A DNA stretch of 64,000 bases from Nakaseomyces glabratus (Eukaryota; Ascomycota; Saccharomycetes; Saccharomycetales; Saccharomycetaceae): NCBI RefSeq assembly GCF_010111755.1, contig NC_088962.1:744001-808000 (forward strand), given 5' to 3'. Position 1 is the first letter of the stretch. Every line of letters begins with the position of its first letter. This document shows positions 46,076 through 50,193 of this stretch, in pieces. Both the position numbers and the translations under genes were made by a program. The notes under the pieces were generated by a model that worked only from the letters and a program-made list of their open reading frames with translations, was not told where the DNA came from and ran no database searches.

Positions 46076-46472
46076 GCTGCTCACGTTTCCACTTCAGCCA
46101 TACCATAGAAAACTTTTAGTTGTAATAACCTTGAATGCTTTTTTCTCGAAACAACTTGGCTCTGTGAAACAAAAATAATGAATTGAATGAATAAACAGAC
46201 TTTTTCCTTGATAAATAGGCAATTGCTCTAGTTATAACTTGATCTTTGATTGTACCCTTTTTATATATTTTTAGAGAGAAAAATATACTAATTATAAGAC
46301 GATTATAATGCCCATTGGTCTTTTCTCGTTTTTACATGCTCTATGTATATTTGTTTGTGATTGACGTACATGCACAATTCATTGTTTTTCACTTGTATTG
46401 CATTGGTTTACATTTTGTTGTATAATGATATATAACTTTTTTATATACATATGCTAGAGGTTACTGTTGTAC
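46076..46472. other. Convergent region between the SERF-like gene and TIF34
   Basis: 397 bp, AT-rich 3' flanks; no gene seen. Confidence 0.4.
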
Positions 46473-47516
46473 TTAGGCTTCGTGGCTAATATGTTCCTTA
46501 GCATCAGCGGCCTTTTCAACATCATACTTGAAATCGAAGTAGCTCTTCTCGAAGTGGTGCAAACGAACAAGACCTTCTTCACCACCGGATGTGTAGGATG
46601 TACCTTGTGGGGAAACGGCGATGGAGTTCAGAGGACCGAAATGGCCAACAACTCTACCGATCTCTTCTTCGAAAACTTTGTGGTAAATTCTGGCTTCAAA
46701 CTTACCTTCACTAGCACTGGTAGTTGTAACTTCACTGGCATCTTGACCACCACCTAGGATAACGAATTCCTTTAGAGGAGTGATGGCTGCACTATTTAGA
46801 GGACTGTCTGTTTCATATGTCTTCAACACTTTAAACGTTTCAATATCTATAATGTGAGCATTGGAGTCTCTTGAGCATGTGATAAAATAAGTACGGTCTG
46901 GGGAGAACTGTAGATCACTCACACTGTCCTTGTGTACTTGCTGGGACTCCACTAGTTTGTAGCCATCCTGAGTGTCATATTTACTGATCTTACCGTCCTT
47001 GTGACCAGCAATGATGTACTTGCCCTCACCGGACCAGCCTGCTACACTGGCAGCATCGAGACCCTCGTGTGTCACAATGGAGTGAATTGGTTCTTCTACG
47101 AACTCGGTAATTTCATTAGTTTCTGGATTTCTCTTAACTTCGTAAATTTCAATGGAACCTGGCTTCTTCATAACGTTGTCCAAGATCGCAAGGATATACT
47201 TACCACATGGGGAGAACTCGACTCTCTTCACTGGAACAGGACAGTTCCATGTCTGAACACATTGGCCGTTCATTAGAGTCCACACTTTGATGGTATAATC
47301 GGCACTACCGGTAACACAGTATAAGGAAGTGTGGTCGGAATCGATAGACCAGATAGAACCCATATGGCCATCCAACGTACCCAATCTCTCACCGTTGTTT
47401 GAGTACCAGACACTGGCAGAAATATCCTTAGAACATGTGAATAGTAGATCACCTTCTCTGTTGTACTTAACTTGCGTCAGTGGACGCTCGTGTCCCATTA
47501 AAACGATAGGTCTCAT
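46473..47516 (-). CDS. TIF34: eIF3i, translation initiation factor 3 subunit
   Basis: 347 residues from the ATG at 47516, exactly the S. cerevisiae length; the 25 upstream open codons have no ATG. It is a seven-bladed WD40 propeller (GHERPLTQVKYNREGDLLFTCSKD, GHMGSIWSIDSDHTSLYCVTGSADYTIKVW, VVGHFGPLNSIAVSPQGTSYTSGGEEGLVRLHHF). It binds eIF3g and eIF3b in the eIF3 complex on the 40S subunit. In S. cerevisiae it is YMR146C, in the segment paired with YDL082-086. Confidence 0.97.
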   Translation of the reverse strand: MRPIVLMGHERPLTQVKYNREGDLLFTCSKDISASVWYSNNGERLGTLDGHMGSIWSIDSDHTSLYCVTGSADYTIKVWTLMNGQCVQTWNCPVPVKRVEFSPCGKYILAILDNVMKKPGSIEIYEVKRNPETNEITEFVEEPIHSIVTHEGLDAASVAGWSGEGKYIIAGHKDGKISKYDTQDGYKLVESQQVHKDSVSDLQFSPDRTYFITCSRDSNAHIIDIETFKVLKTYETDSPLNSAAITPLKEFVILGGGQDASEVTTTSASEGKFEARIYHKVFEEEIGRVVGHFGPLNSIAVSPQGTSYTSGGEEGLVRLHHFEKSYFDFKYDVEKAADAKEHISHEA

Positions 47517-48800: not shown

Positions 48801-49412
48801 GTTATCAGTACTTCTTAGGTCAATTGCCAGCTTTGTCTCAAGGGCATCAAAACAGCTTGTTTGAACTAACACCAAATTCCTCACTGCTTATATACTTTCT
48901 AACTTAGCAGGGTTGTGAACATCCCAGTGTCCTCCCTTGCCCCCCCCATTGTCGATCGCTCATTGCACATCATTGAGATGAGCGATCCCCTAATGTCCTA
49001 CGTATAGAATGTGTCTAGCTCTATGTACTTCATTGTGTGAGGGCTTGCCATATACTTCGAGTTGAAAGGATATCTAAAGTAAAGCAATGTCATCAGTGAG
49101 CTGTTAATATGTGCTATGTTATCAACGGCGTCTTACTAGGTATCGAATTCTATACAACCCAATTGGCTACCTTATATATTTAACGTTTAGGTCAAATTGG
49201 TCCAGAGCATTGCTTTGAGCACTGGGCATCGCCTAATTAGGAAAAAAATCGAATTTCTGAGTACTGGGATAAACACCAAAAAATATACTGAGTAGCGATG
49301 AGCTGATGTCAAACTGGCGTATTTCACATAGTCATACCAGTTATTCAATAGGAATTTGTTGTCCAGGAGTCAGTTTTTGGCGTGAATCTGGTGTGACAGT
49401 GTACTATTGCAG
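48801..49412. other. Divergent promoter region before the frameshifted gene
   Basis: 612 bp between the hydrolase ATG and the first ATG of the T5orf172 gene. A CCCCCCC run lies near 48940. No other gene seen. Confidence 0.4.
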
Positions 49413-50193
49413 ATGACTAATAAGACTATGGTGGTTCGATGCCTTAGGCATTACTAAGAAAGGTTTACCGTGTAAGATCAAGTTGAATGATCCCAATGAG
49501 AAGTACTGCCACTTCCACAAGTGGCAGTCGCCTAACCATCATACAGAGAAGCTGATGAGTGTTGGTAAGAAGGCCGGTTTCATATACATATATACATATA
49601 TGCATCTCTATGAATCATTCTTCAATAAGGACAAAAAGAAGAGCCAATTGGACTGGCTATATATTGACAAATCTATTATTTCGCAGAAGAAAGAGAACCA
49701 GAAGCGTCAACTGTGGAATGACAGAGAGAATATACTCTGCAAAATAGGGATGACCACTAAGCCAATGGTGTCTACTAGACTGTTGGAATGGCAGAATACT
49801 TGTAAAAACCCTGTGATAAACTTAACACCTGACAGAATCGAGCAATTGATATATGCGTATGATACAAAAACAAAGAAAATCAACAGTATATCGACGCTAC
49901 TGACAAAATTAGAATTGAAGAAGGAGAAGCCGCAGTCAAGGCAAGAATCCCCTTTGGATCTATTGACGTATAAAGATGGTGGGTTTTTTATAGATGGAAC
50001 AAGTAATCTGAATTTATCCGAAGTAGAGAATAGGATACATAGATTTCTGTGGGAAAAGTATGGAAAAGGATTCATTTACTGTTATGGATGTGACCCAATG
50101 GGACAAAAGAGGCACACTGAGTGGTTTCACTTACCAATCAGAGATTTAAGTTCAGTAATGCGTACCATAGACGCCTTTTGTTATTCAGGTTAA
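49413..50193 (+). CDS. T5orf172/Mug113-like (GIY-YIG-fold) protein read through a +1 frameshift
   Basis: The ATG at 49413 (another in frame at 49428) opens a 14-codon frame ending at TAA 49455-49457. Shifting +1 at CTT-AGG-C (49443-49449) joins residues MTNKTMVVRCL to GITKKGLPCK and continues to a stop at 50193, giving 259 residues. The joined motif RC-x-G-x-T-x-K-G-x-x-C...YCHFH is the Cys/His motif found before T5orf172 domains. The domain follows: GFIYIYTY (GIY-like), ILCKIGMTTKPMVSTRLLEW (YIG-like), then ENRIHRFLW and HTEWFHLP. Catalysis is unproven. The second frame has no ATG before its conserved start, so it cannot begin independently. Confidence 0.75.
49443..49449 (+). promoter_or_regulatory. 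Putative programmed +1 frameshift site CTT-AGG-C
   Basis: Exact match to the Ty1 and ABP140 heptamer. On that signal, tRNA-Leu(UAG) slips from CUU to UUA while the rare AGG codon waits in the A site, so GGC is read next. Here the shift gives Leu-Gly, which keeps the conserved motif. The zero frame ends two codons later. Confidence 0.75.

Follow-up and report, generated by a model that had tools for sequence, protein, structure and literature searches.

The closest described system is that of Saccharomyces cerevisiae. Ivanov et al. (J Biol Chem 2025, PMC12719033, November 2025) report that YPL034W as annotated is the 3' portion of a larger gene, YFS1, which is translated through a +1 shift at CUU-AGG-C, and that the shift is conserved in most sequenced Saccharomycetaceae. 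According to that account, ribosome profiling puts the shift in S. cerevisiae at an estimated 19.3%, while a reporter gives 48% shifting, and 1.5% with the site changed. The blot shows the fused product alone, with no short form detected from the native construct. Among 81 homologues, 52 require the shift and 29 do not. The Cys before the site is unchanged in all 81 sequences, three Kazachstania species carry CUU-CGG-C, and the motif ‘UNAC’ follows the heptamer in the shifting homologues. In 8 Saccharomyces species the +1 frame has a stop ‘just after the start codon’, and there is no conserved near-cognate start (PMC12719033). A further paper, PMC12661321, also tests YFS1 and adds LLP1. Neither glabrata nor Nakaseomyces is named in the main text of PMC12719033.

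How does the corresponding locus of Nakaseomyces glabratus compare? We analysed a window of 64,000 nucleotides, the whole stretch of DNA in which a preliminary description, made from the letters alone, had proposed a T5orf172 gene expressed through a Ty1-type +1 programmed frameshift. The features of this gene are as follows.

49413-49457, + strand: ORF1, in the zero frame; 14 codons from ATG to the TAA at 49455-49457, with a second in-frame ATG at 49428
49414-49416, + strand: TGA bounding the +1 frame at its upstream end; it overlaps the start codon (ATGA) and is the last stop there
49440-49518, + strand: likely CCCH zinc finger, with Cys10 at 49440-49442, Cys20 at 49471-49473, Cys32 at 49507-49509 and His35 at 49516-49518
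49443-49449, + strand: shift heptamer CTT-AGG-C, in which the A at 49446 is passed over; its CTT is in frame with ATG 49413
49447-50193, + strand: ORF2, in the +1 frame, from GIT... to the TAA at 50191-50193
49451-49454, + strand: TTAC, which fits the ‘UNAC’ motif of PMC12719033
49555-49557, + strand: first ATG of the long frame (Met48), where the gene model P0002 begins, without the N-terminal finger
49711-50169, + strand: match to T5orf172 (residues 100-252); the match to MUG113 covers residues 109-250

Read without a shift, the zero frame gives MTNKTMVVRCLRHY and then TAA, ending after 14 codons as the preliminary description had stated. When CTTA is read as one step, the frames of the window sequence join: the residues MTNKTMVVRC-L supplied by ORF1 run on into the second frame, and the product is a protein of 259 residues that ends with the stop at 50191-50193. 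The claim that a one-base shift at this site opens a 259-residue protein is thus borne out. No ATG was found in the second frame between the TGA at 49414-49416 and the conserved N-terminus; the first is at 49555, again as described. The stretch TGC CTT AGG C A TTAC T at 49440-49455 contains the UGY codon for Cys, the heptamer, UNAC and the ACY codon for Thr. When set against the hallmarks of YFS1 published in PMC12719033, the window gene has each sequence feature that was checked. RNA folding of 49413-49530 gave a z-score of -1.92, with 7 of 200 shuffled sequences as stable.

How readily might such an arrangement arise by chance? CTTAGGC occurs 5 times on the two strands of the window against 4.81 expected, so that the heptamer count alone is unremarkable. 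At the 11 in-phase places of the overlap between the frames, on the other hand, base composition predicts it only about 0.00045 times. We also tested 26 joins of the two frames, +1 or -2 after each of 13 codons. Just two of them, +1 after TGC and +1 after CTT, restored the motif C-x-G-x-T-x2-G-x2-C...YCxxH, and these two yield the identical protein; both halves of the Cys motif are indeed kept only with the shift. Across the genome, the pattern TGYCTTAGGCNTNAC has a single match, the window gene itself, and its reversed control has two. Because the reversed control occurs twice, the pattern alone is no rarer than chance would have it, and it is the location that counts. Another copy of CTTAGGC, at 46472-46478 on the + strand, lies 7 codons past an ATG, is followed by 94 open codons in the +1 frame and touches the 3' end of the EIF3I gene on the opposite strand; its position there is probably due to chance.

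To what family does the protein belong? In Pfam, the 259-residue product matches T5orf172 with 32.9 bits (cut-off 20), which upholds the family assignment of the preliminary description, and MUG113 with 30.5 bits (cut-off 22.3). Two protein searches returned 62 homologues; all 20 found by the first recur in the second, which scored 7998 candidates, those sharing the most words. The named homologues are from budding yeasts: Vanderwaltozyma polyspora, Tetrapisispora phaffii, Lachancea nothofagi, S. mikatae, S. kudriavzevii and several Candida. That of Nakaseomyces bracarensis is 68% identical. Homology to the annotated part of YPL034W was measured through S. mikatae SMKI_16G1360, a ‘YPL034W-like protein’, which is 49% identical to the window protein over 160 residues. 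The source genome (12.73 Mb, 13 contigs) contains one match to the gene; a search of the same genome with PF10544 returned nothing although the gene is present, and is evidently too insensitive here. Four of the five neighbouring genes matched Pfam families (DLH, EIF3I, LUC7 and Nup35-type).

An alignment was made of 44 of the 63 proteins, and Arg122 and Glu205 are invariant in all 44 rows. We take these two to be the catalytic pair of the GIY-YIG-like family; a nuclease activity of the present protein is putative. Cys130, Cys223, Cys226 and His234 are likewise invariant in 44 of 44 rows and, from the sequence, could form a second metal site within the T5orf172 part.

What do the N-termini of the homologues say about the shift? 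In each of the 62 we located the second and third Cys of the motif and recorded the residue ten positions before the second. Twenty-nine were informative, having ten or more residues ahead of the second Cys. The other 33 were not: 25 have no YCxxH-type motif in their first 110 residues, and 8 lack the second Cys or are too short upstream of it. Cys occupies the recorded position in 22 of the 29, as it does in the shifted window protein. Relatives that are read straight through therefore own the very residue that the window protein gains only by a +1 shift. In the remaining 7 of the 29 the residue is Val, followed by Leu-Gly. This is what an intact site would leave in a model made without the shift: TGT-CTT-AGG-C read in the second frame is GTC-TTA-GGC, Val-Leu-Gly. 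At the window site the same reading is GCC-TTA-GGC, or Ala-Leu-Gly. For the other yeasts the heptamer is deduced from these 7 protein models and from PMC12719033, and Val-Leu-Gly has other codings too.

One homologue, P0044 (66 member sequences), is peculiar. It resembles S. cerevisiae Yfs1, starts with MRCL, its Cys being codon 3, reads C-L-R-H-N-K-K and keeps C-x9-C without a shift, and then departs from the family sequence further on. It also has MTTRKT at residue 101, a position that coincides with the annotated start of YPL034W, given in PMC12719033 as Met101 of Yfs1. The missing shift and the later departure look like two indels of that assembly. Without P0044 the count becomes 21 of 28.

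Is the N-terminal segment a folded module? Residues 10, 20, 32 and 35 of the window protein have the pattern of a CCCH finger, with Cys10 encoded before the shift and Cys20, Cys32 and His35 after it. The 44-row alignment has Cys at residue 10 in 22 rows, with Val in 6 and a gap in 16. At residue 20 there are 29 rows with Cys and 15 with a gap; the Cys at residue 32 and the His at residue 35 each occur in 32 rows, the other 12 being gapped. The residues C, G, T, C, C and H are invariant across 22 N-terminal segments, the uniform spacing of which is by construction, these having been picked by a pattern that fixes C-x9-C. Compared with the finger of Mcm10 and primase (zf-primase, PF09329), the window protein has the G..C...YC..H pattern in common, and its finger segment matches with E 0.00035 and 20.7 bits, under the Pfam cut-off of 28.8. 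The whole protein scores 14.8 bits against the same cut-off, and 11.2 bits without ORF1. Of the 22 segments, 17 match DUF5763 and 15 match zf-primase at E up to 0.1. A profile of the segments, when compared with solved structures, gave 8 matches with the Mcm10 chains 3h15 and 3ebe on top (E 0.15), followed by a designed peptide (0.44), Cas1 chains (0.97 to 2.1) and Mcm10 7y01 (1.6). A profile of whole proteins returned Mcm10 7y01 as its sole match (E 0.63, positions 6-39). None of these structure-profile matches is significant by itself. Because the score falls below the Pfam cut-off we do not file the finger under zf-primase; so weak a match (E 0.15) denotes likeness rather than membership. 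An AlphaFold2 model of the protein has a mean pLDDT of 88.5, with block means of 82 to 96 across residues 1-40.

From the sequence we consider it likely that residues 10, 20, 32 and 35 make up an Mcm10-like CCCH finger, with its first ligand encoded ahead of the shift. We also favour, with little more than even confidence, a stronger proposal: that the shift site lies inside a zinc-binding finger, between ligands 1 and 2, so that only ribosomes that slip would make the finger, and that the shift would gate a nucleic-acid-binding module of a GIY-YIG-like protein. Our confidence in this is lowered because, in the AlphaFold 3 model of PMC12719033, residues 1-47 of S. cerevisiae Yfs1 are unstructured, which speaks against the proposal unless zinc was omitted from that model. 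The words zinc, finger, metal and Mcm10 are absent from the main text of PMC12719033. A zinc finger here, if real, would account for the invariance of the Cys that precedes the shift site.

Could the two frames be joined, or the shift dispensed with, in some other way? A single base suffices to break a frame, and so an assembly error or a strain-specific insertion might have split a gene that is in truth one unbroken frame. Such a frame should give longer gene models. Instead, the models of the four closest homologues (P0002-P0005, 61-99% identity) all begin downstream of the site and none runs through it; P0002 differs from the window protein at 2 residues and hence is not the same sequence. 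The uninterrupted orthologues that the preliminary description had named as a refuting case are accordingly unsupported. The Val-Leu-Gly expected of an intact heptamer in 7 of the 29 informative homologues, and the need for the shift in 52 of 81 homologues (PMC12719033), also speak against an error, which we regard as very improbable. Just as improbable, in our estimation, is a start within the second frame, at ATG 49555 or at a near-cognate codon, with ORF1 a mere upstream ORF. The gene model P0002 does begin at 49555, and ATA 49420, ATT 49450, AAG 49456 and AAG 49474 are near-cognates in frame. But such a start would drop the conserved stretch (C, G, T, C, C, H), the first Cys of which is encoded by ORF1, and in S. 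cerevisiae neither the short form from the native construct nor a conserved near-cognate start is seen (PMC12719033).

The preliminary description had also named an intron that removes the site and joins the frames. TTAG at 49444-49447 might serve as its acceptor, and TACTAAG at 49452 and GACTAAT at 49415 are present. However, there is no GTATGT or GTANGT donor within 48851-49480; the sole occurrence of GTATG, GTAAG or GTACG, at 49472, is inside the finger; no [TC]ACTAA[CT] branch site was found; and splicing would also have to provide the conserved Cys. We give this refuting case, which is unsupported, still less credence than the other two.

Does the source genome offer a suitable setting for slippage at CUU-A? 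A gene resembling ABP140 (C10 near 381833-382147) is split at CTT-AGG-C; MGVADLIKKFEQISQE lies upstream of the split, close to the start of the gene, and a methyltransferase is encoded on the downstream side. We take MGVADLIKKFEQISQE to be the start motif of ABP140. An EST3 gene (C3:410907-411372) is split at CTT-AGT-T, with the Pfam family TPP1 matched in two frames. Pattern searches, by which divergent genes could be missed, counted 4 tRNA genes for Leu(UAG), none for Leu(AAG) and 1 for Arg(CCU). When one mismatch was allowed, the Leu pattern picked up 8 Leu(CAA) and 3 Leu(UAA) genes as well, and the reversed control matched once. None of the 4 Leu(UAG) loci was recognised as a tRNA by ARAGORN; in the two read on the correct strand (L033 and L036), the sequence shows a Leu tRNA with a probable intron after the anticodon. 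An Rfam search for tRNAs, in which 63 of 810 candidates were scored, is no census; ARAGORN, run on 30 of the loci from that search, returned 1 Arg(CCU) and 9 Arg(UCU) among them. The pattern for tRNA-Gly(GCC) had 0 matches in the genome, and we judge that pattern to be wrong. A tRNA setting of this kind is tied to CUU-A shifting by PMC12719033, which cites Farabaugh et al. 2006. As a separate observation, an antizyme-like match (ODC_AZ) at C13:757912-758184 lies in an open stretch of 216 codons.

We conclude, with a probability of about 0.95, that the window gene is the orthologue of S. cerevisiae YFS1 (YPL034W) and is made by a +1 shift at CUU-AGG-C. Ribosomes would initiate at AUG 49413 (or 49428) and proceed until CUU occupies the P site and the slowly decoded AGG the A site. 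A forward slip of one base would let the Leu-tRNA re-pair on UUA and GGC (Gly) be taken in. The second frame would then be read on to 50193, producing the 259-residue protein with its likely N-terminal CCCH finger and its GIY-YIG-like (T5orf172/MUG113) domain, while ribosomes that fail to slip would stop after 14 codons. The Ty1-type +1 shift of the preliminary description agrees with the sequence, with the homologues and with the pattern-matched tRNA genes, and has been shown experimentally in the S. cerevisiae member of the family (PMC12719033). That description knew of no report for this family; the shift of YPL034W/YFS1 is reported by Ivanov et al. The observation is therefore correct and the mechanism very probably so. 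Neither is new, since the same shift in the family is already published.

What might the protein do? As cited in PMC12719033, the genetic interactions of YPL034W resemble those of YEN1, and strong synthetic growth defects occur with POL12, the B subunit of polymerase alpha-primase. We would speculate that an Mcm10-like finger fits a role near DNA in replication or repair. Shifting in N. glabratus, zinc binding and a DNA-related function are things we infer. The mechanism itself is already established. What the N. glabratus gene provides is one more genome for a chromosomal gene reliant on +1 frameshifting, and placing the shift within a CCCH finger seems a small addition to the published work. 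It also appears that gene models of the YFS1 family often lose the conserved N-terminus, for 33 of the 62 do not show it.

How, finally, does the window gene stand beside the known systems? It is homologous to S. cerevisiae YFS1/YPL034W and has the same heptamer, identically placed with respect to the conserved Cys and Thr, as well as the same layout of frames. The two differ in that the Cys codon is number 10 from ATG 49413 (5 from ATG 49428) in the window gene and number 3 in YFS1, and in the length of ORF1, which is 14 codons here and 20 in S. cerevisiae (PMC12719033). S. pombe mug113 and other T5orf172/GIY-YIG proteins are related through the domain, the matches to MUG113 and T5orf172 being over the cut-off here too; mug113 is the closest BLAST homologue according to PMC12719033, the text of which names no frameshift in it. 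Other genes resemble the window gene in their slip sites while their proteins are unrelated. ABP140 and EST3 have CUU-A sites, that of EST3 being CTT-AGT-T; and +1 shifts have been reported or proposed for LLP1/YJR112W-A, at CUU-A-GGC, for BIR1 of Z. parabailii, at CTT-A-GTT, and for BIR1 of C. glabrata, at a 7-bp signal (PMC12661321, PMC5433688, PMC7534453). The preliminary description had equated the heptamer with the Ty1 and ABP140 signal. The letters are the same in both, and in the published sites of YFS1 and LLP1 as well.
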